Shown: one piece after another, positions 1-20,084 of the stretch
Numbering within the stretch: the stretch's first letter is position 1
How the letters are laid out: each line of letters opens with the position of its first letter
DNA from: Bacilli bacterium
GTDB taxonomy: Bacteria > Bacillota_I > Bacilli_A > RFN20 > CAG-826
DNA: 32,633 nt
Direction of reading: 5' to 3'
NCBI GenBank assembly: GCA_024408505.1
Contig: JAKSUZ010000012.1
Span: 1-32,633, forward strand
Made by a program: the position numbers and the translations under genes
The notes under the pieces: model-generated
Told to the model about the DNA's origin: nothing
What the model saw: the letters and a program-made list of their open reading frames with translations, nothing else
Database searches by the model: none

Positions 1-31
1 TAGTAGGCTTATGATATAATCCAATTAACTC

Positions 32-86
32 GTCCAGTTTATTGGGTACACATCAGTTGGTTGTCCAACTTTTGGGGTTCACTTCA
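32..86 (+). mobile_element. Probable right end of an IS3-family insertion sequence
   Basis: Two imperfect 24-bp direct repeats, 32-55 and 63-86, match at 18 of 24 positions and have a 31-bp period. The reverse complement of the second begins TGAAGTGAACCCCAAAAG, which closely resembles the left-end inverted repeat I associate with IS3/IS150-group elements of Firmicutes, and it ends in the expected TG/CA. The transposase would lie left of the window. The family call rests on recall of that terminal motif; no transposase coding is visible here. Confidence 0.45.
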
Positions 87-120
87 TTTTACTTGTTCAT
101 ATTTAAGATTTATAATAAAC

Positions 121-1205
121 ATGTTAATGATATTAGTTTTATTGTTTTTTATAGTCATTGTAGTTTATCTTTCTTACCGTAAAACTACTACTGCTAGTAA
201 CAATTACGATTATTTAGATAAGCGTGTTACACAATCTATATGTGGTTTTTTTGTTGTTATAATCTTCTTAAGTCACTTCTCTGTTAACGTTTTAAACCCA
301 ACGCCTTTAGACGATTGTTTAACATATATTTGTCATAATGTGATTGGGCAACTCATGGTCGCTCCTTTTTTGTTTTATGCGGGGTTTGGAGTTACATGTC
401 AATATCAAAATCCAAACGGGGGGGGCGATATTTAAAAAAACTTTTGTTTTCTCGAATATTTAAAGTTTACATAACATATTTATTTTGTTTAATAGTTGTA
501 AAATCGTTTGAATCAATAAGTACACATTCGTTTATTTTTGATCCATTAGAGCTACTGATTTGGCAAAACGATTACTATTGGTTTGTATTCATAATATTAT
601 TTGAATACATTTTGTTTCTCTTGTTATTTGTTATTGTTAAGAACAAAAAGACAGCATTTTGTATATTATCGTGTTTACAAATAGCCCTAGTTATCTTGTT
701 GTATAAAACTAATAAGCCGGGTTTTTGGTATGATACCCTAATTGCTTTTCCTTTTGGAGTTTTCTGGGCTTTATATAGAAATAAGATTGATACTTTTTTT
801 ACCATAAAACAAAATTCATTACTTGTATTAATCTCCACGGCCGCCATAATTATATCTTCGTTCGCCCTTATTAATACTTTTCCTATGCCTATATATTTTT
901 ATGTTTTTACACGTTGGGTTTTATGTATATCTTTTATAACTTTTATTTTGTCCTTTTGCGTTTTATTTAAAACAGCAAATAAATTACTAATTTGCTTAAG
1001 CAGTTATTCTTTTTATTCTTATATTTTGCAAAGTGTATCTTTCTTTTTGTTTGCAACGACTGCTGAAGTTGCATCATTTAATACCGTGCTATTCTTTATT
1101 TCTTGCTTGACGTTTACTATAGCTCTTTGTTTTGCAATTAAATTCATTATCGATAAAATTTGGTTGTTTACATTCAATAAAATAAATACAAAGTTATCTA
1201 AATAA
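121..1205 (+). CDS. Acyltransferase-3 family membrane protein, out of frame at a G8 tract
   Basis: Two overlapping reading frames (121-435 and about 396-1205) give one coherent protein if one base is added, or two removed, in the G run at 418-425. The joined product would be about 361 residues, normal for acyltransferase-3 (OafA/NodX-like) proteins that O-acylate surface polysaccharides. The first part has an N-terminal membrane helix and a segment ending in the LSHF motif that resembles the conserved His of the family. The second begins RYLKKLLFSRIFKVY, like the family's arginine-rich loop, followed by about eight hydrophobic helices. I take ATG 121 as the start: an earlier in-frame TTG at 61 lies inside the IS end. 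No Shine-Dalgarno is seen; TATAAT sits at 111-116. As read, translation stops at 433-435, so the gene is off unless slippage or frameshifting occurs. It could also be a true pseudogene or a sequencing error. Confidence 0.62.
418..425 (+). repeat. Homopolymeric G8 tract, candidate phase-variation switch
   Basis: There are eight consecutive G in strongly AT-rich DNA, inside the acyltransferase gene. Frame 121 enters the tract as GGG GGG GGC GAT ATT TAA. With nine G, or six, the frame continues into the downstream half as Gly-Gly-(Gly)-Arg-Tyr-Leu-Lys-Lys. Length change by slipped-strand mispairing would switch the protein on and off. No other G or C run of this length was noticed in the window. 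Confidence 0.65.
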
Positions 1206-1790: not shown

Positions 1791-2702
1791 ATGAAAGGGA
1801 TTATTTTAGCAGGTGGGAGCGGATCTCGCTTATACCCTCTTACCTTTGTGACATCTAAGCAATTATTACCGGTTTATGATAAACCAATGATTTATTATCC
1901 ATTAAGCGTTCTAATGATGGCGAAGATTAGAGATATCTTAATTATTTCTACTCCGACTGATTTACCACGTTTTAAAGCATTATTAGGAGATGGGTCTAAA
2001 TTCGGCGTTCATCTTAGCTATGCAAAACAAGATAAACCAGAGGGATTAGCGCAAGCATTCGTAATTGGTGAGAAATTCATTGGTAAAGATGCCTGTGCAC
2101 TTATCCTAGGCGATAACATTTTCTATGGTTCTGGTTTAGTGGCGCATTTAACTCATTCCGTTAATCGTGCTGAACGTCATAACCGTTCTACAATTTATGG
2201 CTATTACGTTAAAGATCCTACTCGTTATGGTGTGATTGAGATTGGAGAACACGATACTCCACTTAACATTGAAGAGAAACCTACTCATCCAAAATCTAAT
2301 TATTGTGTTACTGGTTTATATTTCTATCCTAGTGATGTTGTTAAGATGGCTAAGAAAGTAAAGAAATCTAAACGTGGTGAATATGAGATTACTGCATTAA
2401 ATAATATGTATATTAATGCTAAGAGAACTCATCTTACTTTATTAGGACGTGGTTACTCTTGGCTTGATACCGGAACTCCTGATGCACTTAATGATGCTAG
2501 TGATTATGTAAAGATGATTGAAGAGCATCAAGGCATTAAGATGATGTGTCCAGAAGAAATAGCATATATCAATAAATGGATTAATAAGAAGACATTAATT
2601 GAAATTGCTAAATCAATGAGCAAAAACGATTATGGTGAACATTTAATGAATGTTGCTAAAGGTAAAATCCTTTATGCATCATCAATTATTAATGAGAAGT
2701 AA
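1791..2702 (+). CDS. rfbA: Glucose-1-phosphate thymidylyltransferase
   Basis: First step of dTDP-L-rhamnose synthesis: dTTP plus glucose-1-phosphate gives dTDP-glucose. The 303 residues fit RmlA (about 290-300). The nucleotide-binding motif GGSGSRLYPLT (residues 8-18) is followed by SKQLLPVYDKPMIYYPLS, and the metal-binding LGDNIFYG (Asp108) and EEKP motifs are present. The signature usually reads GGSGTRL; Thr is Ser here. The WLDTGT motif is followed by PDAL rather than the common HDSL, conservative departures that should not abolish activity. It is the first gene of the four-gene rhamnose operon, 2 nt ahead of rfbC. No clear Shine-Dalgarno precedes it; an A/T-rich -10-like stretch lies at 1772-1779. 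Confidence 0.95.
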   Translation: MKGIILAGGSGSRLYPLTFVTSKQLLPVYDKPMIYYPLSVLMMAKIRDILIISTPTDLPRFKALLGDGSKFGVHLSYAKQDKPEGLAQAFVIGEKFIGKDACALILGDNIFYGSGLVAHLTHSVNRAERHNRSTIYGYYVKDPTRYGVIEIGEHDTPLNIEEKPTHPKSNYCVTGLYFYPSDVVKMAKKVKKSKRGEYEITALNNMYINAKRTHLTLLGRGYSWLDTGTPDALNDASDYVKMIEEHQGIKMMCPEEIAYINKWINKKTLIEIAKSMSKNDYGEHLMNVAKGKILYASSIINEK

Positions 2703-2704
2703 TT

Positions 2705-3259
2705 ATGCTTAAGTTTACTAAGACCGCTATTAAAGATGTTTATATTATCGAACCCCAAGTATTTGGAGATAATCGTGGATACTTTATGGAAACTTATAGT
2801 GAATCCGATTTTAAAAAAGCGGAATTAAACTATAACTTTGTTCAAGATAATCAATCTAAGTCTAAGAAAGGTGTGCTTAGAGGCTTACATTTTCAAAAGA
2901 AACATCCACAGGCTAAATTAGTGAGAGTTATTAAAGGTGAAGTATTTGATGTAGCGGTCGATTTAAGAGAGGGTTCTTCTACTTATGGTAAATGGGTAGG
3001 GGTATTGCTCTCAGAAGAAAATAAGAAGCAATTATTAATCCCGAGAGGATTCGCTCATGGCTTCTTAGTTATATCTGACACAGCCGAGTTTGTTTATAAA
3101 TGTGATGAATTTTATCATCCTGAAGATGAGGGTGGCATTATTTATAACGATAAGGATATAAATATTGAGTGGCCTATTATTGATGCTCCTATCTTATTGA
3201 GTGATAAAGATAAGAAACATCCTACACTTAAGGAAGCGAAGATTAGCTTTAAATTATGA
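2705..3259 (+). CDS. rfbC: dTDP-4-dehydrorhamnose 3,5-epimerase
   Basis: Third step of the pathway: it epimerises C3 and C5 of dTDP-4-keto-6-deoxyglucose. The 184 residues are normal for the cupin-fold RmlC. Motifs seen are DNRGYFMETY (22-31), QDNQSKSKKGVLRGLHFQ with the catalytic His62, Lys71 in AKLVRV, and Tyr in EFVYKCDEFY near 130. The gene ends in TGA, overlapping the ATG of rfbD as ATGA (3256-3259). This junction is one of the places showing that TGA is a stop codon in this genome. Confidence 0.95.
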   Translation: MLKFTKTAIKDVYIIEPQVFGDNRGYFMETYSESDFKKAELNYNFVQDNQSKSKKGVLRGLHFQKKHPQAKLVRVIKGEVFDVAVDLREGSSTYGKWVGVLLSEENKKQLLIPRGFAHGFLVISDTAEFVYKCDEFYHPEDEGGIIYNDKDINIEWPIIDAPILLSDKDKKHPTLKEAKISFKL

Positions 3260-4143
3260 ATTTAGACCTAAAAATACTTGTTACAGGCGTTAAAGGCCAA
3301 TTAGGCTACGATTGTGTGCGTGAACTTAAAGAACGCGGTTATAAGAATGTTTTAGGTATAGATAAAGATGAATTAGATATCACTAATGAACAAGCAGTGC
3401 ATAAGTTTATCAATGACTATAAGCCAGATATCGTTATGCATAATGCTGCATGGACTCAAGTCGATAAAGCAGAACAAATGGAAGATTTAGTGTATAAGGT
3501 TAACGCATTAGGCACTAAATATATTGCAGAAGCCTCTAAAGAAGTTAATGCTACTATGTTTTATATTTCTACTGATTATGTATTTGATGGCAAAGGCAAT
3601 CAGCCATTTGAGGTTAATAGTCCTAAGAATGGATTATCAGTGTATGGCAAGACTAAATCACAAGGCGAAGACTTTGTAACATCTACATTATCTAAATACT
3701 TTATTATTCGTATTTCATGGGTATTTGGGATTAATGGTAATAACTTTATTAAGACTATGCTTAAATTAGCGGAATCTCATAAAGAACTTAATATCGTATG
3801 TGATCAAATAGGTTCGCCTACTTATACATATGATTTATCTAAATTAATGTGCGATATGATGGAGTCTAATAAGTATGGTATTTATCATGCCACTAATGAA
3901 GGGTATTGTTCATGGGCTGAATTTGCAGAGTATATATTTAGAGTCGCAAACAAGAATGTCAAAGTTAATCATGTCACTACTAGTGAATATAAGAAGATTA
4001 ATCCTAATCAAGCGGATAGACCACTTAATAGCAGAATGAGTAAACAAAGTTTACTAAATTCAGGATTTAAATTATTACCTAGTTGGGAAGATGCGACTAA
4101 TCGATATATTAAAAATGAGTTAGGAGTTAAGTATTATGGCTAA
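3256..4143 (+). CDS. rfbD: dTDP-4-dehydrorhamnose reductase
   Basis: Last step: NAD(P)H reduction of dTDP-4-keto-L-rhamnose to dTDP-L-rhamnose. It is a 295-residue short-chain dehydrogenase-type protein with the dinucleotide motif VTGVKGQLG (9-17), the NAAWTQVDKAE segment, STDYVFDG, and the catalytic pair Tyr130/Lys134 in YGKTK. The start overlaps the rfbC stop by 4 nt and the end overlaps rfbB by 8 nt, so translation of the whole operon is probably coupled. The two extra residues before the first strand (compared with many RmlD proteins) are unremarkable. Confidence 0.95.
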   Translation: MNLDLKILVTGVKGQLGYDCVRELKERGYKNVLGIDKDELDITNEQAVHKFINDYKPDIVMHNAAWTQVDKAEQMEDLVYKVNALGTKYIAEASKEVNATMFYISTDYVFDGKGNQPFEVNSPKNGLSVYGKTKSQGEDFVTSTLSKYFIIRISWVFGINGNNFIKTMLKLAESHKELNIVCDQIGSPTYTYDLSKLMCDMMESNKYGIYHATNEGYCSWAEFAEYIFRVANKNVKVNHVTTSEYKKINPNQADRPLNSRMSKQSLLNSGFKLLPSWEDATNRYIKNELGVKYYG

Positions 4144-5149
4144 GTTCTTAGTTACTGGTGGTGCAGGCTTTATTGGCGGTAATTTCCTCCACATGATGGT
4201 GAAGAAATATCCTAAAGATAAATATGTATGTTTAGATGCATTAACCTATGCTGGCAATATGGAAACCTTAAAACCGATTATGAATAAGAAGAACTTTAAG
4301 TTCGTTCATTTAAATATCTGTGACCGTAAAGGTGTTTATAAGTTATTCGCTAAGGAACATTTTGATTATGTCATTAACTTTGCAGCTGAATCACACGTAG
4401 ATAGAAGTATTGAAGATCCTGAGATATTTATTAAGACTAATGTATTAGGCACCCAAGTATTAATGGATGCATGTCGTAAATATGGTATTAAAAGATATCA
4501 TCAAGTATCCACCGATGAAGTATATGGAGATTTACCATTAAATAGAAAGGACTTATTCTTTACTGAGAAGACACCTATTCATGCATCTTCTCCTTATAGT
4601 GCATCTAAGGCTGCTGCTGATTTACTCGTATTAGCGTATCATCGTACATTTAAGCTTCCAGTTACTATTTCTCGTTGTTCTAATAACTATGGTCCTTATC
4701 ATTTCCCTGAGAAGTTAATTCCATTAATGATTAAGAATGCTTTAGCGAATAAGAAACTACCAGTGTATGGTAAAGGTCTTAATGTCAGAGATTGGTTATA
4801 TGTTGAAGATCATTGTGAAGCAATTGACCTAGTAGTGCGTAAAGGTAGAGATGGCGAAGTATATAACATAGGCGGTCATAATGAATATAGCAATTTAGAG
4901 ATTGTTAAAATCATTCTTAAGGAATTACATAAACCAGAATCATTAATTCAATTTGTGAAAGATAGACCAGGCCATGATTTAAGATATGCAATGAATCCTA
5001 GTAAAATCTCTAAAGAGTTAGGATGGAAACCTAAACATAACTTTAAGACCGGTATTAAAGAAACCATTAAGTGGAACTTAAATAACCAGAAGTGGATTAA
5101 AAACGTTGAATCTGGTGCGTATTTAAATTGGATTAAGAAACACTATTAA
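4136..5149 (+). CDS. rfbB: dTDP-glucose 4,6-dehydratase
   Basis: Second step of the pathway: NAD-dependent conversion of dTDP-glucose to dTDP-4-keto-6-deoxyglucose. The 337 residues fit RmlB. Motifs are TGGAGFIGGNF (7-17), FAAESHVDRSI, the active-site STDEVYG with Asp127/Glu128, and Tyr154/Lys158 in YSASK. GPYHFPEKLIPLMI and the NVRDWLYVEDH segment bind the nucleotide sugar. It is the last gene of the operon. Its stop overlaps the stop of the convergent lipoprotein gene by 4 bp, leaving no room for a terminator between them. Confidence 0.96.
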   Translation: MAKFLVTGGAGFIGGNFLHMMVKKYPKDKYVCLDALTYAGNMETLKPIMNKKNFKFVHLNICDRKGVYKLFAKEHFDYVINFAAESHVDRSIEDPEIFIKTNVLGTQVLMDACRKYGIKRYHQVSTDEVYGDLPLNRKDLFFTEKTPIHASSPYSASKAAADLLVLAYHRTFKLPVTISRCSNNYGPYHFPEKLIPLMIKNALANKKLPVYGKGLNVRDWLYVEDHCEAIDLVVRKGRDGEVYNIGGHNEYSNLEIVKIILKELHKPESLIQFVKDRPGHDLRYAMNPSKISKELGWKPKHNFKTGIKETIKWNLNNQKWIKNVESGAYLNWIKKHY

Positions 5150-5588: not shown

Positions 5589-6437
5589 CTATCTCCCAAT
5601 AATTGTATGGTAGATGCAACGTAGTGCACGACCATACCATGTAAATTCCGATATTTTTAATTTAATGCCTTTTTTCTTACTAGCGTCGAAACTTTCTTCG
5701 GTGCCGATTAACACTAATGGACATTCTTTTATTTTAATATCTTTATATTTATCTTTGATGTATAGCATATAGATGGTGAATAATCTCTCAGCTATAAATC
5801 CAACTGACCGTTTATTATAAACAGAACTATTTGAATAATCCTTCCCTTCGTGAAATTTAAATAAGATTGGGAACAGCCACTCACAATATTCAAAAAAGTA
5901 TTTCTTTTTTATAACAAAGATATTGTTGAAGTACACCTTTTTCATTTTTAGCGCCTTCTTAGCATATTGATCAAATTCAGGATGTAATTCATGAAGTATT
6001 GCGATAGCGTTATCTAAATCTTTAATATCGTGTTCAAAAGCATATTTATATTGTCTGCGCATGGAAGAAAATAAACCATTTGATATAATTAGGTTCTTTG
6101 CATATGGCAAAACAATATCATATTGATTAAGTGTTGCTTTTAGATTTGCATCATCAAGTCCATATTTATTCAAAAAGTCATTAGATAGCATTTCCTCTAG
6201 AACCGGGTATTTATTTTTAAGTTCTTTAAATGACAAGAAACGACGATAGTGAAAAAAACCATAGTAATTAGCGTCAATGTTTTTCCAAGCCCAATATGCG
6301 TAGGCAACTTCGCCAAAAAACTTGGAATCAATTTTGCTATCCAAAACTGTATTACTTTTGTAAGCTATATATTTTGAATTTAAATTGTCGGTTGGCTTAT
6401 TGCAAACGGCAATTATTGAAATGTTCGATTTGATCAT
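5589..6437 (-). CDS. DUF4422-type capsular glycosyltransferase
   Basis: The 282 residues show the hallmark pattern of the DUF4422 family found in polysaccharide clusters: AYAYWAWKNIDANYYGFFHY (about 45-64) followed by RRFLSF, and near the C-terminus RSVGFIAERLFTIYML. These proteins are predicted cytoplasmic GT-A-like glycosyltransferases; donor and acceptor cannot be read from sequence. It begins 1 nt after the stop of the ABC ATPase gene, in the same leftward operon, which fits a transferase acting on a polymer exported by that transporter. The N-terminus MIKSNISIIAVCNKP fits the first beta strand of the fold, so the start looks right. Confidence 0.82.
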   Translation of the reverse strand: MIKSNISIIAVCNKPTDNLNSKYIAYKSNTVLDSKIDSKFFGEVAYAYWAWKNIDANYYGFFHYRRFLSFKELKNKYPVLEEMLSNDFLNKYGLDDANLKATLNQYDIVLPYAKNLIISNGLFSSMRRQYKYAFEHDIKDLDNAIAILHELHPEFDQYAKKALKMKKVYFNNIFVIKKKYFFEYCEWLFPILFKFHEGKDYSNSSVYNKRSVGFIAERLFTIYMLYIKDKYKDIKIKECPLVLIGTEESFDASKKKGIKLKISEFTWYGRALRCIYHTIIGR

Positions 6438-6438
6438 A

Positions 6439-7170
6439 TTATTTGCGTTTAGTATACGCGTCCATTACCTTAGTAGCGTCACCAATCATTTTAATATTGC
6501 CTTTATCAAGCCACAAAGCACGATGGCAATATGTTTTAATTGCAACAGCGTTGTGTGTGACAAGCAATACTGTTGCGCCACTTTTAATTAATTCTGCAAT
6601 GCGCTTTTGGCTCTTTGTTCTAAAGCGATCATCACCCACAGATAATACTTCATCAAGAATTAATATTTCTGGTTCCATTTCAGCGGCAATCGAAAATCCT
6701 AAGCGCATAAGCATGCCACTAGAATAAGTTCTGATTGGTTGGTGTAAGAAATTGCCTAACTCTGAGAATTCGACAATTTTGTTATACTTTTTATCAATTT
6801 CTTCTTTTGAATAACCTAATATAGCAGCATTAAGATAAATATTTTCGATTCCGGTTAATTCCATATCAAATCCGCTGCCTAAACCTAATAGAGGAATAAT
6901 CTTGCCATTGAGAATTACATTCCCACTATTTGGCTTAAGAATGCCAGAGATAATTTTAAGTAATGTTGACTTACCAGCGCCATTAACACCGATAATTCCC
7001 ATAACTTCTCCTTTATCGACGCTAAAGGAAATGTTGTTAAGCACTTGATGATCAATGCGCTTTAATTTACGCGAAAACCATTTAACTGTGTATTCTTTTA
7101 AAGAGCGAATGTCTCCTTCGGCCATTTTATAAGACATGGAGATGTTTTTGACTTCTATCATATTAGACAT
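6439..7170 (-). CDS. Polysaccharide ABC exporter, ATP-binding subunit (Wzt/TagH/RgpD type)
   Basis: The 243 residues form one nucleotide-binding domain: Walker A GVNGAGKST (61-69), signature YSSGM (149-153), Walker B EILILDE (168-174) and switch His206 in VTHNAV. The N-terminal segment MIEVKNISMSYKM followed by an inserted helix before the QVLNNISF strand is typical of the teichoic acid and O-antigen export group. It ends soon after the domain and lacks the C-terminal polymer-binding domain of some Wzt proteins. It probably powers export of an undecaprenyl-linked polymer with the permease gene, which it overlaps by 8 nt. Confidence 0.92.
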   Translation of the reverse strand: MSNMIEVKNISMSYKMAEGDIRSLKEYTVKWFSRKLKRIDHQVLNNISFSVDKGEVMGIIGVNGAGKSTLLKIISGILKPNSGNVILNGKIIPLLGLGSGFDMELTGIENIYLNAAILGYSKEEIDKKYNKIVEFSELGNFLHQPIRTYSSGMLMRLGFSIAAEMEPEILILDEVLSVGDDRFRTKSQKRIAELIKSGATVLLVTHNAVAIKTYCHRALWLDKGNIKMIGDATKVMDAYTKRK

Positions 7171-8170
7171 AAAGACTAAATTTCTCCTGTTGTGTTTTGA
7201 ATGTTATGCAACCAATAGCAAACATTCCGGCTGCGCTTATTAAGCACCATAAATAACTATAAAGATTAGGGCTAACACGATCTATAATCAACATTCTCGA
7301 AACTTTTAAGAAGTGGAATAACGGATTAAATTTCATAACCATTTTAAACGTTTCATTTTGGATTCTCTCTACGGAGTAGAAAATAGGTGTAGCATACATC
7401 CATGCTAATCTAATTACACCCCATATGAAGTGCATATCACGAAAGAATACCATAATAGTAGCTAAAAACATTGATAGACCCAAGCAAAATACAAATAATA
7501 ATCCAATATTGAAGAAAAACAGTAAGAAACCTGGAGTAGGCCAAAGTTGCATTGCTAACATAAATATAAATAAAGGAATTAATGCAAAACCAAAATTAAT
7601 AGTAGCTGACAACGCTTTTGACAAAGTATAGATATATTTAGGAACATACACTTTTTTGATTAATGAAGCATTGCCTGTAATAGATTCCATTGATGTGGTG
7701 GTACATTCACTAAAGAAATTAAATGTAACTATGCCTACTAGCAAATAAACCGGGAAATAAGGTATGTTTTGATTGCCTAAAAGAGTTGAAAATACTAGAT
7801 ATTGGGTGCCCATCATTAAAAGAGGATTTAAGAAACTCCAAAGTACCCCCAGTACACTACGTTTGTATTTTCTTTTAAAATCGCGTTTCACAAGTTGCTT
7901 TAGTAAAAAACCATATTTAATCATTTTGTCAGCAATATTTACTGCCAAGCAATGCTTATTATTCTTTGCACGAATAACGCTCCAAATTCCGTAGCATATG
8001 AATGCTCCGAAAATTAGACCCATAATCAACCAATACCATTGACCAAAAGTAGAATGAGCGTTTTCTTCCACATTAAATATTGCTAAAAAATAGAAAAGAA
8101 TAATGCTAACAGCAAGAACTATTGAAACAATAATTTGATTTTTAAGTACGCATTTTGTGAGTTTATTCAT
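7163..8170 (-). CDS. Polysaccharide ABC exporter, permease subunit (Wzm/TagG/RgpC type)
   Basis: The 335 residues belong to the ABC-2 permease family for surface polysaccharides. From about residue 85 the family core is seen: LVKRDFKRKYKRSVLGVLWS, then six membrane helices, with FFRDMHFIWGVI and YATPIFYS before the last helices. Core proteins are about 260-270 residues; here an extra N-terminal section of about 80 residues adds two hydrophobic helices (about 12-30 and 45-65). It is the first gene of the leftward operon and is divergent from the 8298 glycosyltransferase, with 127 bp between them. Confidence 0.9.
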   Translation of the reverse strand: MNKLTKCVLKNQIIVSIVLAVSIILFYFLAIFNVEENAHSTFGQWYWLIMGLIFGAFICYGIWSVIRAKNNKHCLAVNIADKMIKYGFLLKQLVKRDFKRKYKRSVLGVLWSFLNPLLMMGTQYLVFSTLLGNQNIPYFPVYLLVGIVTFNFFSECTTTSMESITGNASLIKKVYVPKYIYTLSKALSATINFGFALIPLFIFMLAMQLWPTPGFLLFFFNIGLLFVFCLGLSMFLATIMVFFRDMHFIWGVIRLAWMYATPIFYSVERIQNETFKMVMKFNPLFHFLKVSRMLIIDRVSPNLYSYLWCLISAAGMFAIGCITFKTQQEKFSLYV

Positions 8171-8297: not shown

Positions 8298-10868
8298 ATG
8301 ATAAAAATTTCAGTCATTTTGCCACTATTTAATCAAGAAAAATACATAAAGCGTTGTTTGTTGAGTGTTGTTTCTCAAAGTTTTAGTAATATTGAAATCA
8401 TTGTAGTAAACGATGGATCCACCGATAATTCCGTTAAAATAGTTAAGCAAATCGCTAAACGCGATAAGAGAATAAAATTAATAAATAAAAAAAATACTGG
8501 TTATGGCAACTCGATGAATGTAGGTTTGAGAGCGGCAAAAGGTGAGTACATTGGGATTGTTGAAACTGATGATTTTATCGATAAAAATATGTACAAAACT
8601 CTATATTCTTTATCGTTGAACGGAGAGGCTGATATTGTAAAAGGCAATTTCTGGAATTACTATGAAGAAAAAGATGGAAAGTCTAATGAATTTAGTAATG
8701 TTGAACGCAATGATGTACCTATAATTTTTCCATATTTCAGTGTGAAAGATCATCCTGAAATTTTATTTGGTCATCCATCTGTTTGGAGCGCCATTTATAA
8801 AAGAAAGTTTTTGCAAGATAACAAAATCGTTTTTAAAGAAGAAAAGGGTGGAGGATGGGTTGATAATCCGTTTTTCTTTGAAACTCTTTGTTTAGCTAAA
8901 AAGGTGGTATATACAAATAAACCTTTATATCATTATCGGAAAAACCCTGAAACATCATCTTCGAGTGGGATAGTTAATCCAAATACTCCATTTAATCGAA
9001 TGAATGATAATTTAAATATTTTGCAAAAATACCACCTCACCGATGACTATACTAATAAATTCGTTTATTCAAGAGCGTTGCAATACGTATATGGTTCGTT
9101 GATGGAATGCGATTACGATTCAAATTATGCACTTATTGATAGCAAAGCTCAATCGATGTTAAGAAGATTAAATCCTGATATTTTTAGAAAGTATTTTAAT
9201 AATAAAGATGTCAATTTTTATTATGAATTTACTTCCCCTATTAAAACTATAATTGATGGGTTTCCAAAAATATTAATCTATAATTGGCTTCCTTATGATA
9301 ATCCCTTTGGTTATGGTGGTGGTGTAAGTATTTATTGTAATAATTTAGTAAATTCGTTAATTAAAGAATGCCCGAATATCCAAATTTTCTTTCTATCAAG
9401 CGGCTTTGCATACGATGCTACTACAAAAAACACTTTTGTAAGGCTTTTAAATTCGTCTCATTATGGTCTTGTTAAACAATATGAAGTTGTGAACTCGCCT
9501 ATTCCTGCTGATCAAAGATTTTTATACAGAAATCCTTTAGCTGCCTTGCGTTGCGAACGCTTAAAATCTGTTTTTAACGATTTTATTAAAAAACACGGAC
9601 CATTTAAAGCAATTCATTTCAATAATATTGAGGGGCTGTCATTTGATATATTTGACTTAAAAAAAGATTATCCAAAAACCAAATTTGTCTACTCTATGCA
9701 TAACTATATCCCTTTTTGTGTTACTAATAGTTACTATATGAGACATAAGCATTGTATTTGTTCGCCTAAACATTCTGCTTTGGATTGTTTTAAATGTTCT
9801 AGAGTAGATATTTTTGAGGATTTGGATAATATGATGTACGATCGTGGAAAATTTGGATATCATACAGAACGATTTATTCCTAAAGAAGAATGGATTAAAA
9901 GCTTACATCTGAATTTATTGTCGACAAATGTTAAACAACAAAATATGTTAAAATTTTCTCAAAGTTGTGTTAAAAAACTTAATGATAATTTTGATCATAT
10001 TTTAGCGGTTTCAAAAAGAACTAAAGATATAGCAATTAGTCAGGGTATTAGTAGAAAAAAAATTAAGTTGTCGTATATTGGAACTCATGTTGCTGAATGC
10101 CAAAGATTATCATCGGCACCTGTTAATGATTATTTTAAAGTAGTTTTTTTAGGCGACAACTATTTTTATGAAGAAAAGGGTTATCCTTTTCTTATGAAGT
10201 CTTTATCAAATTTAGATTGGAGACATGCTCGTAAAATTGATGTTGTGTTGACAACTAGATCTAATGTAAGTAAACAAATTAAGCATGAACTGCATTCTTT
10301 TCATAAAGTAACGGTAATAAATGGTTATACGCATGACGACTTAAGAGACATTCTAAAAGATTGCAATTTAAGTATTATCCCAGTAATGTGGGAAGATAAT
10401 TTACCACAAATCGCAGTTGAATCAATTGCTTATGGAGTTCCTGTTTTATCAAGTAGTTTTGGTGGCGCAAGTGAACTGTGTTCCTCTCCGTTATTTAAAT
10501 TTAAGGGCGGGGACGAAACAGATTTTCTGTCAAAATTAAAACATTTGATAGATAATCCAAATGATCTAGAACAATTTTGGAAATATCATAATGGCTTAAA
10601 AACAATGAAGGATAATGTTAGAGAATTGATTGAAATATATGGAATTCAACCTACAAACAAAATTGTTATCAATAACTGCGATTTCAGTTATTTATTACAG
10701 CAGTATCAATTTTTAAGTCACTTGCCCCCAACTGAAATACGAACTACAGTTAGGTTAACTCCGGCGATGTCCTTTTATGCTAAACATAGAAAAGCGATTG
10801 ATAAGGCTCTTCCGCACGGATCTACAAGACGTGCTATAATATCCAAACTAATTAAAAAACACATGTAA
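8298..10868 (+). CDS. Two-domain glycosyltransferase (GT2 followed by GT4)
   Basis: This 856-residue protein joins two glycosyltransferases. Residues about 3-300 are a GT-A family 2 domain: ISVILPLFNQEKYIKRCL, VVNDGSTDNS and the metal-binding VETDDFID (about 88-95). Residues about 325-800 are a GT-B family 4 domain: a glycine-rich start YGGGVSIY (near 337), a Cys-containing insert (HCICSPKH...CFKC, about 483-500) often seen in this group, and EDNLPQIAVESIAYGVPVL (about 697-715) with the catalytic Glu motif and nucleotide-binding loop. It probably adds two successive sugars to a repeat unit. By eye it uses more AAA and AGA codons than the rfb or ribosomal genes. The fusion gene follows 8 nt later. 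Confidence 0.88.
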   Translation: MIKISVILPLFNQEKYIKRCLLSVVSQSFSNIEIIVVNDGSTDNSVKIVKQIAKRDKRIKLINKKNTGYGNSMNVGLRAAKGEYIGIVETDDFIDKNMYKTLYSLSLNGEADIVKGNFWNYYEEKDGKSNEFSNVERNDVPIIFPYFSVKDHPEILFGHPSVWSAIYKRKFLQDNKIVFKEEKGGGWVDNPFFFETLCLAKKVVYTNKPLYHYRKNPETSSSSGIVNPNTPFNRMNDNLNILQKYHLTDDYTNKFVYSRALQYVYGSLMECDYDSNYALIDSKAQSMLRRLNPDIFRKYFNNKDVNFYYEFTSPIKTIIDGFPKILIYNWLPYDNPFGYGGGVSIYCNNLVNSLIKECPNIQIFFLSSGFAYDATTKNTFVRLLNSSHYGLVKQYEVVNSPIPADQRFLYRNPLAALRCERLKSVFNDFIKKHGPFKAIHFNNIEGLSFDIFDLKKDYPKTKFVYSMHNYIPFCVTNSYYMRHKHCICSPKHSALDCFKCSRVDIFEDLDNMMYDRGKFGYHTERFIPKEEWIKSLHLNLLSTNVKQQNMLKFSQSCVKKLNDNFDHILAVSKRTKDIAISQGISRKKIKLSYIGTHVAECQRLSSAPVNDYFKVVFLGDNYFYEEKGYPFLMKSLSNLDWRHARKIDVVLTTRSNVSKQIKHELHSFHKVTVINGYTHDDLRDILKDCNLSIIPVMWEDNLPQIAVESIAYGVPVLSSSFGGASELCSSPLFKFKGGDETDFLSKLKHLIDNPNDLEQFWKYHNGLKTMKDNVRELIEIYGIQPTNKIVINNCDFSYLLQQYQFLSHLPPTEIRTTVRLTPAMSFYAKHRKAIDKALPHGSTRRAIISKLIKKHM

Positions 10869-10876
10869 AATAAGAT

Positions 10877-13800
10877 ATGAAAAAAAGAAAAACGATTCGA
10901 ATAGGCATATATGGTTGGTGGTGCCATGAAAATTATGGCGGCGTATTAACGTATTACGCTTTGAACCAAATTTTAACAAGCGAAGGATACGATGTATATA
11001 TGATTCCGGAAGCTTATGGCATTGAACCTAGATATAAACTTAGGCCTACTTCAACATCAATGAAGTTTGCTTCATCGTATTATAAGACAATCCCTCAACC
11101 ATTGTATAAAGATTTGCATTTATTAAATGATATGTTTGATGTCTTTTTTGTTGGAGGTGATCAGTTGTGGAATAATTTAATATCGTTTGTAAAAAATGAT
11201 TATTATTTAAGTTTTGTTCATGATGATAAACTTAAACTCTCTTTCGCTACCTCCTTTGGAAATAAAAAACATAATCCTTCTGCTGAATTTTTAAAAGAAA
11301 AAGGAGATCTATTAAAGAGATTTAATGCAGTATCTGTAAGGGAAGATTACGCTGAAGAAATCGCAAAAATTAAATATGGAGTTGATTCGACATCTATATT
11401 AGATGCAGTTTTTTTGCTAAAAAAATCACAATATGTTGAATTAGCAAAGAAGAGCAATATTAATTTACCAAATAAATTTTTATTCGCCTTTATACTTAAT
11501 CCATCAATTGAAAAAAGGCAACAAATCGAATTTATCGCAAAAAAATTGAATTTGGAAATTATTTTATGTTCTGATTTAGCTATCGCTTATCATGACGAAT
11601 TTAAAAAAGTGTTTTCAGGAATGAATGCTTTTACTAATTTTTCGATTGAAGACTTTTTAAAATGTTACGAAAAATGTTCATACATTGTTACTGACTCGTT
11701 TCACGGAACGTGTTTTGCTTATATTTTTAGGAAACCTTTTAGTTTTTATTTCAACAAAGAGAGAGGGTCAGATAGATTTAAATATCTAATGAACAGCGTG
11801 CTACTTCTTGAGGAAAGGAGTTTAGATCAGAAGACCAGCGTAGAAATGTTACATGATAATCCAAACATCTCTTTAGAGATTGATTTTTCTAAAAGTGATT
11901 TTAATGTTAGTAATTTGATTAATAAAACAAACAATTGGCTTAATAAAGTTTATAAATTGATTAATAAAACAACTAAGAAACGCAAAAATGGTTTTTCAAT
12001 TAATAATTTAATTAATAAAATTCATTTAAAACAAAAAATAATACATGTAAATGATTGTAAGCATCTTGATTACAACAAATTTAAGATTGATGCAGAAGCT
12101 GATAGTGCAACTTCATTAAAAAGAATAGAAAACACAAATCCAAAAAGTAACATCGTCGGTGTTTTAAACGTTATTGATGAATGCGTAGGTTGCTCATCTT
12201 GTGAAAATTCATGCCCTGCTTCAGCAATTAAACTTATCGAAAATAAAGATGGTTTTTTAAATCCGTCCGTAGATTTAAACAAATGTGTTCATTGTAATAA
12301 ATGTGTTAAAAATTGTTCTGTGCTAAATCACAAATTTGATAATGCGGTGCAACCAAAATGTTATGCTGGGATTGCTGAAAATAAAATTCGTGAAGAAAGT
12401 TCATCTGGTGGCTTATTTTCTGTATTAGCTAATTATGTAATCAAAAACAATGGTTACGTGTGTGGAGCTGTTTTTACTGAAGAATATAAAGTTTGTCACA
12501 TTCTATCTAATAATATTAATGATATTGCTAAAATGAGAGGATCTAAATACTATCAAAGCAATTTGGGAGGAGTGTTTAAAAATATTAGAGAAAAACTAAA
12601 GGATGGAAAAGTTGTGTTATTCTCTGGTATGCCATGTCAAGTGGCTGGTTTGTATTCTTTTTTAGGCGAGCGCTATGATAATTTATACACTATTGATATA
12701 CTGTGTCATGGAATATCCTCTTTTAAAGTTTTCCGAAAATACGCAAACGATGTTTTAAAGAATAAGAAAATTGTAGATTTAAAATTTAAAGCAAAAAAAC
12801 CTTGGGGATGGCATGCCGGAATAAATGCTAGTTTTGATGATGGCACAAGTTACCGTGCTGCTCATGAGCATGACCTATTTTATATGAGTTATCTCAATAA
12901 CTTATCAAAAAATAAACCTTGCGGTACATGTAGTTTTGATAGATTACCGAGACAAGGCGATATAACTTTATCAGATTTTTGGGGAATCGAAAAATTTGAT
13001 CCAAAACTTAATGACGATATGGGTACCTCATGCATTTTATTAAACAATCATCATGGAGAGACTTTGTATAAGAAAATTGAGAACGAATTAAATGTCTCGG
13101 TACAAGTCCCTCTTGAATATGCTGTTTTTGGTAACAGAGCAGTGACTAAGCCCTTCCCATCGAACAAAAATAGAAACATCTTTTTTAGTAGATTGGATAG
13201 TGAAAATTTTGTTATCAACACTAAACGGTGTTTATCTGATTTAAATATAGAAAATAATGAATTTGCTCCGATAATCAATTTAATATCTTCGAATATAAAA
13301 AATAGAAGCTTGGTTGCGATTGGTAGAAACAGCGAATTCGAAAAGCAACTTGCAATGTTTTCGCATTTAAAAATAGATTATTATATAAGTGATAATCAGC
13401 TAGATTTTAATGAAAAATGCGGCCCCTTTTCTTATCTTAAAAATAAAAAACATCTTTGCTATGTTGTTTACATAGTTTCGCAGTCCGGTTTTGCTAAAGC
13501 AAAAGAAATACTTAATTTATGTGGGTACAAAGAAAATGATGACTACATTTCGTTTGTAAAAGAACCGATTGTTATAACTAACTTTGACTTAAGCAAAAAT
13601 AAATATAATGATACTTTTGGCAACAGAATCATTGGCTTTGATGGAATAATTAAAAAGGTTGTATTTAGAGGATATAACAATCATTTGACAATTGGACGCA
13701 ATGTAAATTTAAAAGGAGTAGATTATTTTATTTTTTCTAATAATTCATCCTTAACAATTGATGATAATACAGTATTTAAAAGAGATACTAAATTTGAATT

Positions 13801-15220
13801 GAATGGTGGTTTAGTTGATGGATATAATACATTACATATAGGCTCAAAATGTATTTTTGAAAAAGCGCTTTTTAGAATGTATAACAACATTAATAAATCC
13901 GCCATTAATATTGGCAATAATTGCATTTTTGGGCAAGATATATATTTTCATGCAAATACAGGCAAAAGAATAGTTATCGGCAATAATTGCATGTTTTCTA
14001 GATTTATTAGTATCTTTAGTGGTGATGGCCACTCTCTTTTTGATTTACAAAGCGGCAAAAGAACCAACAATTATTGTGCTGATGATACTCTTTTAAATTA
14101 TGTAATAATTGGCAGTCATACATGGGTTGGAGTTAAATCTATAATTCTCTCCAAATCATATATTGGAGATGGGTCCACTATAGGTGCAGGCAGCGTTGTA
14201 AAGGGAAAATTTACCAACAACTGTATAGTGGCTGGAAATCCTGCCAAAATTGTAAAGTTAAATACTGCTTGGTGCGATAATAACAATATTAGTGAATTAA
14301 AATACTGTGGCAATTATATATATCCTTCTAGAAATGAGCAAAAATTGCCGTTAATTGGTAAGAAAGTTTTAGTCATAGGAGGTACAGGACAAAATGGAGT
14401 AGCATTGGTTGATAAATTATTATCCTACGGGAACGATGTCACTATTGCTACCAGAGGAAACAAAAAGGATAATTTTGGAAATCGAATTGAAAGAATTGTT
14501 TTAGATGTTTCTAATCTTGATAGTACCAAAGCAGGCCTATCTGGCAAAAAATATGATGTTGTGTTTCATAATTTAGCATATAGTTCTAATTACTTAAAAA
14601 ATATTTTAGATTATGTGCATTGCGACAAAGTTGTTGAATTATCTTCTATTGCTGTATACAAGGATAAACAAAACATTGATGTTAAAGAAGATGATTTTAA
14701 TCCTTTCAGCGAAAAATTTGATTGGAATTCTTCTCCTGCTAGTTATGGCGCGGGTAAAAGAGATGCTGAGTGTGCATTATTCCAAAATTATAAAAATATT
14801 CCATCTGTCGCTGTGCGTATACCATATGTAGTTCCTACTGAAAGACTTGATTATTATTGTGATTGCATTGTCAATAATAAACCTATGTCAATTCGAAATC
14901 TCGATGCTTGTCTTTGTTTTATAAAAACAACCGAAATAGCCGATTTTCTTGTGTGGGTTGCTAATCAAGAATTATATGGCCCAGTTAATTTTTCAAGCGA
15001 AGGATATGTAAAAATTATTGATATTATTAGATACATTGAAAAAAAGACTCTCAAAAAAGCTTTCTTTAATACTTCTGGTGCTCCATCACCTTTTCTTCAA
15101 GAGATTTATCTTAATTTAGACAAAGCGAAAAAGGCCGGATATTACCCATTGAAATTAAGCGATTGGTTTTGGAATACACTAGACTCCCATATAATCAAGG
15201 CGCTAAAAAATAAGTCATAA
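10877..15220 (+). CDS. Giant multidomain polysaccharide-modifying protein: pyruvyltransferase, FrhB-like ferredoxin, acetyltransferase, epimerase
   Basis: The single 1447-residue frame holds five recognisable parts. 1) About 5-340: polysaccharide pyruvyltransferase (GWWCHENYGGVLTYYAL; DVFFVGGDQLWNN; TDSFHGTCFAYIFRKPF). 2) About 430-775: two [4Fe-4S] motifs, CVGCSSCENSCP and CVHCNKCVKNC, then an F420-hydrogenase beta (FrhB)-like domain (ESSSGGLFSVLANYV; GMPCQVAGLYSFL; DITLSDFWG). 3) About 795-900: Rossmann-like segment beginning SLVAIGRN. 4) About 920-1130: left-handed beta-helix hexapeptide acyltransferase of WbbJ type, with GDGHSLFD and IVAGNPAKIVK. 5) About 1155-1440: NAD-dependent epimerase/dehydratase with VIGGTGQNG and the YGAGK catalytic Tyr/Lys. 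Parts 1 and 2 are known as neighbours or fusions in capsule clusters; all five in one chain is unusual. It probably decorates or prepares sugars of the exported polymer. I see no frameshift or stop at the domain borders. Confidence 0.85.
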   Translation: MKKRKTIRIGIYGWWCHENYGGVLTYYALNQILTSEGYDVYMIPEAYGIEPRYKLRPTSTSMKFASSYYKTIPQPLYKDLHLLNDMFDVFFVGGDQLWNNLISFVKNDYYLSFVHDDKLKLSFATSFGNKKHNPSAEFLKEKGDLLKRFNAVSVREDYAEEIAKIKYGVDSTSILDAVFLLKKSQYVELAKKSNINLPNKFLFAFILNPSIEKRQQIEFIAKKLNLEIILCSDLAIAYHDEFKKVFSGMNAFTNFSIEDFLKCYEKCSYIVTDSFHGTCFAYIFRKPFSFYFNKERGSDRFKYLMNSVLLLEERSLDQKTSVEMLHDNPNISLEIDFSKSDFNVSNLINKTNNWLNKVYKLINKTTKKRKNGFSINNLINKIHLKQKIIHVNDCKHLDYNKFKIDAEADSATSLKRIENTNPKSNIVGVLNVIDECVGCSSCENSCPASAIKLIENKDGFLNPSVDLNKCVHCNKCVKNCSVLNHKFDNAVQPKCYAGIAENKIREESSSGGLFSVLANYVIKNNGYVCGAVFTEEYKVCHILSNNINDIAKMRGSKYYQSNLGGVFKNIREKLKDGKVVLFSGMPCQVAGLYSFLGERYDNLYTIDILCHGISSFKVFRKYANDVLKNKKIVDLKFKAKKPWGWHAGINASFDDGTSYRAAHEHDLFYMSYLNNLSKNKPCGTCSFDRLPRQGDITLSDFWGIEKFDPKLNDDMGTSCILLNNHHGETLYKKIENELNVSVQVPLEYAVFGNRAVTKPFPSNKNRNIFFSRLDSENFVINTKRCLSDLNIENNEFAPIINLISSNIKNRSLVAIGRNSEFEKQLAMFSHLKIDYYISDNQLDFNEKCGPFSYLKNKKHLCYVVYIVSQSGFAKAKEILNLCGYKENDDYISFVKEPIVITNFDLSKNKYNDTFGNRIIGFDGIIKKVVFRGYNNHLTIGRNVNLKGVDYFIFSNNSSLTIDDNTVFKRDTKFELNGGLVDGYNTLHIGSKCIFEKALFRMYNNINKSAINIGNNCIFGQDIYFHANTGKRIVIGNNCMFSRFISIFSGDGHSLFDLQSGKRTNNYCADDTLLNYVIIGSHTWVGVKSIILSKSYIGDGSTIGAGSVVKGKFTNNCIVAGNPAKIVKLNTAWCDNNNISELKYCGNYIYPSRNEQKLPLIGKKVLVIGGTGQNGVALVDKLLSYGNDVTIATRGNKKDNFGNRIERIVLDVSNLDSTKAGLSGKKYDVVFHNLAYSSNYLKNILDYVHCDKVVELSSIAVYKDKQNIDVKEDDFNPFSEKFDWNSSPASYGAGKRDAECALFQNYKNIPSVAVRIPYVVPTERLDYYCDCIVNNKPMSIRNLDACLCFIKTTEIADFLVWVANQELYGPVNFSSEGYVKIIDIIRYIEKKTLKKAFFNTSGAPSPFLQEIYLNLDKAKKAGYYPLKLSDWFWNTLDSHIIKALKNKS

Positions 15221-15547: not shown

Positions 15548-16780
15548 ATGGAATGGTATAAACTTACAGAAAAACTAGTTGATTGTTTTGTTCGTTATTA
15601 TAACAATCAGAAAGAATTTAGAGATAAGGTTAATAGAGCATATATGAATTTTTGCGAAAAAGCAGGTAAAGAGCCGCAAAAAGTTAATTTGGAAGGTGGT
15701 TTTCCAGAAACAATTGATCCATTTAGTGTTTTTGGCATATTGAGTTTGCATAGATCGCTTAAAAAAAGAAAGATGCTATATGATGAGTTGTGCAGCGAAT
15801 TTTCTATTGCTAATAACGATACCGAATGTATAGACTGGGATATACCGCATCTTACTGTTTTTTCTATGTTTTATAATTTTGATGGTGAAACATATAAAAC
15901 GCAAACTTCAATCTTGTGGGAGTTTTTTGTTTTAGCTTCAAAATATAAATCTATTAAAAGAGAACCAAGTAAATTAAAAAAATTTGAAGACTTGTTTAAT
16001 GACATTATTAACTTTAAATCAAATGATGTAGCAAAAATATCTATTATACTTTTCACAATAAATCCAAAACAATTCGTTAGCCTAGATTCTAATGATATTT
16101 CTTATCTATATTACATAAAAGGAATCGATTTAGTTGCTGAGCTAGAAATTCCTAAGGTTGATTCAAATTTTCATTTTAAAAAATGCAAAGGTTTTCAAGG
16201 AAAACATTATATTAAAATTTTAAATTATTTAAAAGACAAAAAAATTAACTTCATTAAAAATGCTAAAGATAGCAATGGTTTCGATTTTAAACTGTTTAAG
16301 ATGGGTTACTACGAGAAGCCTGTAATTTCTAAAGAATCACGCAAGATAACCACGTTTTCTGATGATCCTAAAAAGCCAAAGCGGAATCATGATAAGAAAA
16401 CCAAGACTTATCAACCGTTTAAACGCAATCCTAAAATTGCTGATTATGTAAAACATGAAAGCGGTTATCGTTGCGCATTATCTTGTAATCATGCACTATT
16501 TGAAAGCAAGAAAAATCCTCACAATAATTATGTTGAAGTGCACCATATAATTCCATTTTGGGCACAATCATTTTTTGAGAGCGGTCTAGATAATCCTGCC
16601 AATATGGTAGCACTTTGTCCTAGTTGTCATCGCGAAATTCATAATGGCACCAATAGACAACAATTAATTAATTTACTTTTAACACAGGATCGAATGTCTA
16701 GACTTAAACAGGCGCTGTTGTGCAAAAATAAATCAAATGAAGAAGTGAACTTAAGTTATCTTATGAAATTATATAAATAA
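15548..16780 (+). CDS. HNH endonuclease, candidate modification-dependent (type IV) restriction enzyme
   Basis: This 410-residue protein has a C-terminal HNH nuclease domain: Cys pair in YRCALSC (about 305-311), the HH motif in VEVHHIIPFW (about 328-337), then LDNPANMVALCPSCHREIHN (about 347-366) with the catalytic Asn/His and second zinc Cys pair. The 280 residues before it are not an obvious family; the NPKQFVSLDSNDISYL segment (about 175-190) recalls the N-terminal recognition part of McrB/HNH restriction proteins. No methyltransferase is adjacent, which favours a solitary restriction enzyme cutting modified or foreign DNA. It is not IscB-like: there is no RuvC motif. No Shine-Dalgarno; extended -10 just upstream. 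Confidence 0.75.
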   Translation: MEWYKLTEKLVDCFVRYYNNQKEFRDKVNRAYMNFCEKAGKEPQKVNLEGGFPETIDPFSVFGILSLHRSLKKRKMLYDELCSEFSIANNDTECIDWDIPHLTVFSMFYNFDGETYKTQTSILWEFFVLASKYKSIKREPSKLKKFEDLFNDIINFKSNDVAKISIILFTINPKQFVSLDSNDISYLYYIKGIDLVAELEIPKVDSNFHFKKCKGFQGKHYIKILNYLKDKKINFIKNAKDSNGFDFKLFKMGYYEKPVISKESRKITTFSDDPKKPKRNHDKKTKTYQPFKRNPKIADYVKHESGYRCALSCNHALFESKKNPHNNYVEVHHIIPFWAQSFFESGLDNPANMVALCPSCHREIHNGTNRQQLINLLLTQDRMSRLKQALLCKNKSNEEVNLSYLMKLYK

Positions 16781-16822
16781 TATTTGGTACGAAATAACTA
16801 CGCCATACTATTTTAGAAATTG

Positions 16823-16852
16823 TTGGTAAATTAGCAATTTGCCAGTTAATAT
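16823..16852 (+). promoter_or_regulatory. Putative promoter with an internal palindrome
   Basis: TTGGTA (16823-16828), 18 nt, TAATAT (16847-16852); the predicted start falls on or next to ATG 16859. Between the two boxes GGTAAATT (16825-16832) and AATTTGCC (16836-16843) form an 8-bp inverted repeat with one T/G pair and a 3-nt centre. It could be an operator, or the base of a weak hairpin after the HNH gene. Confidence 0.35.
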
Positions 16853-16858
16853 ATAAAT

Positions 16859-17443
16859 ATGTCAACTTCTGAAATTTCAACAATAATTATTAGTTCAATT
16901 TCAATTTTTTTATCATTAATAACCATCATAATTACATATTGTGAATTGCGAAAAGATAGAAGTTATAAGAGGTTAGATATAATAGTTGGGTTATTGAAAG
17001 ATACACGGATGGATGATGATTTTGCATTTATATTTGAATGTATAGATCGCGAATTGTCATTTAAATATAAAAAACCAGGATATTTTGATATTTCTGATGA
17101 TATTAGGAAATTGTATGGTAAAAAAATAAATAATTTTGAATTCGGCAGAAAGATTGATTATGTTCTTTCAATATATGATAGCTTTATCTATTCGTCCTCA
17201 AAACGGCTGCTCTCTAAGAAAGAATTTAATTTTTTTCATTATAATCTGGCAATGATTTTTGACAACAAAGAGATAGTAAATTTTTTATATTCAATAAACC
17301 TTTATTGCAAAAAGCGAAATATTATTTGTCCTTTTAGTAATTTAGTTGAGTATGGTATTAAACACAAATATTTAAAAATCGATTTCTATAACGATAATTC
17401 TCCTACCTATAAATGCCTTATTAAAGATGCAAAATCAATTTGA
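16859..17443 (+). CDS. One-pass membrane protein of unknown function
   Basis: The 194 residues begin with a short polar stretch and one strong membrane helix (about 7-28, IIISSISIFLSLITIIITY), then a positively charged step and a cytoplasmic, mostly helical domain with many Asp, Lys and Tyr. The layout resembles small DUF4760-like membrane proteins, but I cannot confirm the family. Lying between a restriction-type nuclease and an Abi-like operon, it could be a membrane effector, or simply island cargo. It ends in TGA. No Shine-Dalgarno; -10-like boxes directly precede the ATG. Confidence 0.6.
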   Translation: MSTSEISTIIISSISIFLSLITIIITYCELRKDRSYKRLDIIVGLLKDTRMDDDFAFIFECIDRELSFKYKKPGYFDISDDIRKLYGKKINNFEFGRKIDYVLSIYDSFIYSSSKRLLSKKEFNFFHYNLAMIFDNKEIVNFLYSINLYCKKRNIICPFSNLVEYGIKHKYLKIDFYNDNSPTYKCLIKDAKSI

Positions 17444-17493
17444 TGTAACTCTTAAGCAAGTGCTACTTAACACTATAGGCCGCTTATGACAAT

Positions 17494-18033
17494 TCACAAA
17501 AGTGTTTCTACTATTTTCTTGAATTGATATGTTAGTGTGCGTGGGAAGAGAAGATATTCTTTTAGATGTAAGATGGTGGATTCCACTAATTTACCAAAGG
17601 CATATGCTTCTATTTCACTAGTGAGATTTTCGTATTTCTTTTGTTGAGATATAGTCCATTTATCACTATTTCGAGGTAATTTAGTTTCATAATAAAATTC
17701 TTTTAAATATTTATCACGTGAATACTTAAATTGATTAAGATGCATAAGTTCATGCGATATTACTTTTGCAATCATTGCATAAGCTTTTTTCTTCTTTTTC
17801 TCATTAGTTGCTTCTACAAAATCATTTCACATCTGATCATCCACGGCGATAATAGATTTATCTTCGACTATAGCGCTTAGACCAGTCGGCATATAAAAGT
17901 CATCTGGTTGTTCTCCACTTGTGTCAACTAAGATGAAATCATACCAAGACTCTTCAATCTCTAATATGCTATTGATTGCATTTAACAGTTTATCAAGTGA
18001 TTCTCCTTCTTTAATTTCTTTTGATATAAACAA
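17494..18033 (-). pseudogene. Zinc metallopeptidase-like gene interrupted by an in-frame TGA
   Basis: Two segments lie in the same minus-strand frame, separated by one TGA at 17829-17827: an upstream part of 68 codons and a downstream part ending at 17494. Read through, the product would be about 179 residues. The downstream part carries HELMH (the zinc-binding HExxH) in VISHELMHLNQF and, about 45 residues later, EIEAYAFGK, a possible third ligand, as in short zincin peptidases. The upstream part contains DTSGEQPDDFYMPTGLSAIV and IIAVDDQM just before the stop. TGA is one transition from TGG (Trp), giving DDQM-W-NDF, so a recent nonsense mutation is likely. The start is TTG at 18033 with a perfect AGGAGG five bases before it. 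ATG at 17775 could still start a 93-residue fragment with the metal site. Confidence 0.65.
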
Positions 18034-18438
18034 AATGTCCTCCTATATAGTTATTCGCTAAAATTGAGAGATAATTTTCACTAAAATAGAAGTATATTTA
18101 TTTTATAGATATAAATAATTATTAAATGCCACGCTTGGTTTACATAATATAGTGGGTCGTACTCTTCTTTTGATTTCAAAGATTCCATCATTTTTGAAAT
18201 GACGTACTTATTTGATTTTACTGACTTATTTTGCTTAAATTTGCACTTTTCCATCATTTTTACCCTATGTTTTTTTGCATTTTTCCAACTTTTAAGCGAT
18301 TCACTAATCAAAAAATATATGTAATAAAGCATAAATTAATTAAAAATATGATTATAACGATAAAAAAACGATATAAAGTTAAAATTGACTTGCTTTATTT
18401 ATAAATACGCATATTATTATAGTAAGGAGCTCAAAAAA
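18034..18438. other. AT-rich intergenic stretch, mostly featureless
   Basis: 405 bp between divergent genes. The left edge holds AGGAGG (minus strand, 18044-18039) for the metallopeptidase gene, the right edge the ATPase promoter and ribosome binding site. A minus-strand frame of 83 codons (18332-18081) is lysine-rich with a hydrophobic, low-complexity C-terminus and no ribosome binding site; I do not count it as a gene. A 13-bp direct repeat (18183-18195 and 18249-18261) has a 66-bp period. Confidence 0.5.
18390..18429 (+). promoter_or_regulatory. Promoter and ribosome binding site of the ATPase-TOPRIM-AbiTii operon
   Basis: TTGCTT (18390-18395), 16 nt, TATTAT (18412-18417); an overlapping TTGACT at 18385-18390 is an alternative -35 but with poor spacing. 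AAGGAG at 18424-18429 is nine bases before ATG 18439 and decides that start. Confidence 0.45.
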
Positions 18439-20078: not shown

Positions 20079-20084
20079 AAGATT

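Follow-up and report, generated by a model that had tools for sequence, protein, structure and literature searches.

Genomes noted for phase variation through G tracts hold many such tracts, and in Mycoplasma hyorhinis a homopolymer run, poly-A in this case, lies in the promoter region of the genes for the Vlp surface lipoproteins. In Campylobacter jejuni, tracts of at least eight G have been shown to switch, and a length of at least seven is the cut-off that has been used (PMC6321876). Acyltransferase-3 (AT3) genes are also known to be phase-variable, examples being oafA of Haemophilus influenzae, oafB of Salmonella and Lot3 of Neisseria (PMC9558356; PMC3526765). Most known examples of multi-locus phase variation come from pathogens; a recent review leaves this apparent restriction open and names bias in the databases as a possible cause (PMC11868660).

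The window analysed here, a stretch of 32,633 nucleotides that makes up the whole of contig C4 in the 1.23-Mb, 53-contig genome of an uncultured gut member of the Bacilli, carries a run of eight G (GGGGGGGG, in the context ...AATCCAAAC-G8-CGATATTT...) at the junction of two reading frames of one AT3 gene (Table 1). The N-terminal frame (ORF-N), which has a further TTG start at 61, ends at a stop codon (433-435) shortly 3' of the tract, and the frame encoding the remainder (ORF-C) runs on without a stop for 259 codons 3' of the tract. The stops in the three frames leave frame 3 open from 339 and close frame 1 at 433, so that the change from frame 1 to frame 3 is confined to 339-432, an interval that contains the G8 tract. 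The shift required at the tract is -1, equivalent to one extra G, and a unit change in its length joins two frames that are otherwise intact, as judged from the stops and from homologs that are continuous across the site; the tract is the sole lesion of the gene. The sequence, the ORF list and the stop positions thus confirm the original prediction that eight G lie where two frames of one AT3 protein meet. The accompanying claim that either 9 or 6 G would restore 361 residues is correct for 9 G when counted from the ATG at 121; 6 G gives 360 residues. The position of the RXXR motif relative to the tract (Table 1) was taken from the homolog alignment and from PMC9558356.

The predicted AT3 identity was borne out for both parts of the protein. 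ORF-C matched the Acyl_transf_3 family over profile positions 63-324, with 50.2 bits against a curated cut-off of 31, ORF-N aligned with the N-termini of seven intact homologs, and the two together aligned end to end with seven single-frame homologs. ORF-N contains a first helix with the His of ..FLSHF and a second helix with VAPFLFYAGFG. The latter resembles the described second-helix motif V-x-x-F-F-x-[IVL]-S-G-[FWY] (PMC9558356), with A for S, where homologs read FYSGYG. In the first-helix signature R/K-X10-H the His is present, and the residue at -11 is Cys, a position at which intact homologs have K, R, N or L. Among solved structures, no sequence relative of the protein was found.

Neighbouring polysaccharide genes, also foreseen, were recovered by Pfam as rml genes, glycosyltransferases and an ABC exporter. 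Downstream of the AT3 gene lies a gene for a GtrA-like protein, the match of which fell just below the cut-off; the exporter consists of an ATPase (6439-7170) and an ABC2 permease (7163-8170), and the large multidomain protein comprises polysaccharide pyruvyl transferase, FrhB, hexapeptide and epimerase parts. The few homologs whose neighbours were examined likewise sit in surface-polysaccharide loci, L011 and L015 next to or fused with flippases and the others beside sugar transferases, GT2, LicD-like or glycerophosphotransferase-like genes. Because its own neighbours and those of its homologs are polysaccharide genes, a role of the AT3 protein in acylating the exported polysaccharide is well supported by gene context. 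The acyltransferase-flippase fusions themselves, found in L010, L013 and L015 (genomes G233, G235 and G224), have about 870 residues, and the domains in L015 are Acyl_transf_3 and Polysacc_synt_3. Further along the window, the stretch 15548-21065, which separates the polysaccharide genes from the S10 ribosomal operon, is probably a block of phage-defence genes; its products include an HNH endonuclease protein, an AAA_21 ATPase and an AbiTii protein.

On its 5' side the AT3 gene is flanked by IS3 debris and a palindromic repeat, which ends 35 bp upstream of the ATG at 121. Window positions 1-54 recur with 100% identity at C12:855-909, where an rve_2 ORF (Pfam, 1e-12) has its end at 868, and with the same identity at the end of C34. 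The 48-bp near-palindromic repeat recurs, complete or in part, at C12:135023, C26:55, C12:23908 and C10:32; some copies lie beside ribosomal protein genes, among others, and at C4 and C10 the repeat adjoins ends of IS3-type elements, which makes it look like a target for insertion. The sequence before the ATG contains no Shine-Dalgarno sequence.

Table 1. Features of the window and positions of the TTGAC-linked homopolymer tracts
Feature	Position	Strand	Description
IS3-type insertion sequence, right end	1..54	+	last transposase ORF codons (..IVGL stop, 1-14), terminal repeat ending GTACACATCA
48-bp near-palindromic repeat, right half	55..86	+	TGAAGTGAACCCC...GGGGTTCACTTCA
Candidate promoter TTTACT-17-TATAAT	88..116	+	directly upstream of ATG 121; read from sequence
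ORF-N	121-435	+	frame 1; N-terminal AT3 part; from ORF list
ORF-C	396-1205	+	frame 3; remainder of acyltransferase; PF01757 2.6e-13
G8 tract	418-425	+	frame junction; loop after second helix, just before RXXR motif position
rmlA, rmlC, rmlD, rmlB (dTDP-rhamnose)	1791..5149	+	Pfam NTP_transferase, dTDP_sugar_isom, RmlD_sub_bind, GDP_Man_Dehyd/Epimerase
DUF4422 protein and polysaccharide-type ABC exporter	5589..8170	-	Pfam
Glycosyltransferase (GT2 and GT1 domains) and large multidomain protein	8298..15220	+	Pfam
TTGAC tracts, this genome (G000)	C21:1618, C23:83608, C23:84420, C52:4544(-), C1:86351(-), C1:89553(-), C50:12399(-)		
TTGAC tract, genome G004	C1:224010		
TTGAC tracts, sister species	L202, L204-L206, L208, L209, L212, L213, L230		

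We regard slipped-strand ON/OFF switching, with the assembled copy in the OFF phase, as the best reading of this arrangement, and put its chances slightly above even. The G8 tract would be a contingency site within the AT3 gene, the product of which would O-acylate the surface polysaccharide that the neighbouring genes specify, a rhamnose-containing polymer and the presumed acyl acceptor. Polymerase slippage would alter the number of G, and tract length would accordingly vary in the population; in-phase lengths, such as 9 or 6, would give the full-length multi-helix membrane enzyme (ON), and with the assembled G8 translation would end after 104 codons, or about two helices (OFF). From the original prediction of a phase-variable surface acyltransferase, the family, the polysaccharide setting and the G tract at the junction stand as found, and switching itself stands as the best single explanation.

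The tract lies above the cut-off of at least seven G or C within a reading frame or promoter that we adopted from PMC6321876. A census of the genome counted 451 runs of G4, 63 of G5, two of G6, three of G7 and one of G8, with no C run longer than six, so that the G8 tract is both the longest G/C run and the sole G or C run of at least eight in 1.23 Mb. The existence of one G8 somewhere in the genome is not remarkable, since Markov models of order 2-5 give 0.18-0.44 expected G8 words genome-wide and the number of G7 words in the window was reached in 13 of 100 shuffles of it. What stands out is that it lies within a gene, at the one lesion found there, in a GGG-poor genome (across 13 window genes, GGG makes up 4.8% of the counted Gly codons). 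That the longest run sits at the only lesion supports phase variation; every slippage explanation predicts this coincidence, which by itself does not tell them apart. All three G7 runs of the genome were inspected and none breaks a gene comparably, and the resulting isolation of the G8 tract, as the only G/C run of at least seven that breaks a gene here, counts against phase variation. Viral contigs searched for the G8 tract yielded none. G8 tracts are present in 130 of the 224 genomes of the family; most of the 30 loci that were read look intergenic or lie at gene edges, and an apparent frame break in L024 turned out to be two adjacent ABC permease genes, so that the family shows no sign of many tracts within ORFs. 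Two further runs were seen along the way: in L033 (~1501-1510, genome G106), from another genus of the family, the gene for an MBOAT-type O-acyltransferase has a G10 near its 3' end that overlaps the following ORF, and in L023 (791-799, genome G089) a G9 directly follows the apparent lipobox cysteine codon of a solute-binding lipoprotein gene.

Comparison with other genomes provided arguments in both directions. None of the four sister-species genomes yielded the AT3 gene, a result that gives no sign of the tract being maintained and counts against phase variation, and no close relative was found in 58 relatives or, by single-protein search, in the collection of genome contigs. The 279 genomes of the order gave only matches of ~22-30% identity, and 392 genomes across the phylum together with an alignment-based search gave only homologs of ~23-32% identity. 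About 23 homologous loci in other bacteria are nearly all single-frame, and none has a G run longer than five at the aligned site; the family pattern there is roughly K-x-G-x-x-Y, and the window copy has one or two extra residues. Two of the 14 loci drawn from the genome collection have a clear frame break. In L218, a distant homolog from an Akkermansia MAG, the frame changes exactly at a G7 (4659-4665), in the -1 sense as in the window, and the second frame opens at 4660 and continues into the expected membrane helix. This break supports G-tract slippage in such genes, and its weight is lessened by the composition of the Akkermansia contig, which has 52% GC and two G7 runs in 8.6 kb, G7 being commoner there. 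The other broken locus, L226 from a rumen Ruminococcaceae MAG, is interrupted near the aligned site of the window tract, with no homopolymer; together with a decayed second AT3 gene on contig C20, it shows that plain loss also happens.

Such loss is the main rival explanation. A laterally acquired AT3 gene, severed by IS insertion, would have suffered one recent indel at its most mutable site and would now be decaying. We take this rival seriously because IS debris abuts the gene and because the second AT3 gene has decayed, and rate it as possible but unlikely. The C20 gene (C20:834-1874, L009) adjoins an IS3-type transposase end, as the window gene does, and is a pseudogene here; sister species G003 holds an intact counterpart (L199:104-1267, 387 aa, 90% identical over the matched part). 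The missing Shine-Dalgarno sequence speaks against phase variation, and the failure to find the window gene in sister species fits loss. Singleton frame-broken genes are, moreover, usually indels or errors (PMC3711429), which calls for caution. Loss does not, however, account for how a GGG-avoiding genome comes to contain a G-rich tract, and the two AT3 genes differ in their damage: C20 has several lesions, none of them at a long homopolymer, whereas the window gene has a single lesion, at the sole long G tract, followed by 259 codons that are still free of stops.

Programmed slippage at the G run, either by RNA polymerase or as a -1 shift of the ribosome, which would produce some full-length enzyme from a fixed G8, had been offered as an alternative alongside the original prediction. 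The shift needed is indeed -1, G-GGG-GGG permits re-pairing, and the L218 homolog also has a -1 break at a G run. The alternative was nevertheless not borne out: the sequence from 418 to 520 folds no better than its shuffles (z -0.04), giving no downstream structure, the slippery site is not conserved, with homologs nearly all single-frame and lacking a long G run there, and such a device would be unusual for a surface-polysaccharide modifier, so we consider it improbable. Least probable of all is an assembly or sequencing error that hides a tract of another length in a gene that is simply intact, for although the tract lies 418 bp from the end of a single metagenome-type contig and homopolymers are the usual error sites, 15 contig-end pairs overlap by exactly 55 bp, the mark of a k=55 de Bruijn assembly of short reads, in which homopolymer error is low and a G8 is normally read correctly, and 146 of 148 comparable genes have no frame break, neither of the two breaks being at a homopolymer (the comparison took in 303 kb of sister species G003 with 204 ORFs, 148 of which matched the genome at an identity of at least 45%), making a consensus miscall unlikely.

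Slipped-strand switching also draws support from other homopolymers at switch-like positions in the genus, where runs of T8-T14 or G6-G10 stand directly behind a -35 TTGAC (Table 1). In this genome, four of the six T runs of at least nine directly follow TTGAC, versus 16 of 23,489 runs of T4-T7 (Fisher p ~6e-12, a descriptive value, the comparison having been made after the pattern was noticed). The independent check is the scan of other genomes, in which TTGAC-T9 occurred in four of five genomes of the genus; among 215 other genomes of the family two had it, and the reversed control gave no match in the genus. TTGAC-G6 and TTGAC-G10 also occur. The genes 3' of these tracts often encode lipoproteins or membrane-anchored proteins, the best -10 lies mostly 14-18 bases from the -35, partly dependent on tract length, and on C1 two paralogous promoters with T8 and T10 precede paralogous proteins. 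From their sequence, the tracts look like tunable promoter spacers and are candidate phase-variable promoters; they may be a better lead than the G8 gene, and whether they switch is directly testable in existing metagenome reads. Tentatively, the G8 acyltransferase could belong to a wider, undescribed homopolymer phasome in this genus of uncultured gut Bacilli. Its main switches would be the T8-T14 or G6-G10 runs placed directly against the -35 TTGAC in the promoters of surface lipoprotein genes, and all of these together would vary the coat of a commensal.

If the reading of slipped-strand switching is true, on-off acylation of the surface polysaccharide in an uncultured gut Bacilli member would widen the pathogen-centred picture of phase variation, and such switching could bear on phage resistance and host recognition. 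Compared with the Vlp promoters of M. hyorhinis, in which the run is poly-A, the candidate promoter switches of the genus have poly-T or poly-G directly behind the -35 TTGAC. With the poly-G contingency genes of C. jejuni (PMC6321876) the window gene shares a run of at least seven G inside the ORF of a surface-structure gene, a change of frame by gain or loss of G and an AT-rich genome; Campylobacter, however, has many tracts with a peak at 9-10 G and observed variation, whereas here a single G8 is seen in one assembly of an uncultured gut Bacilli member. The oafA gene of H. influenzae, encoding a lipooligosaccharide (LOS) O-acetyltransferase (PMC9558356), is likewise an AT3 gene acting on a surface glycan and phase-variable by intragenic repeats, for which the window gene is a candidate; its repeats are tetranucleotides rather than a G run, its substrate is a Gram-negative LOS and its variation has been shown experimentally. 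Lot/Lot3 of Neisseria meningitidis, an AT3 LOS O-acetyltransferase reported to be phase-variable (PMC9558356; PMC3526765), is likened here by description and differs in targeting the LOS inner core of a Gram-negative. The G8 AT3 gene is probably a further case of a mechanism type that is already known, both from poly-G contingency loci and from phase-variable AT3 genes.
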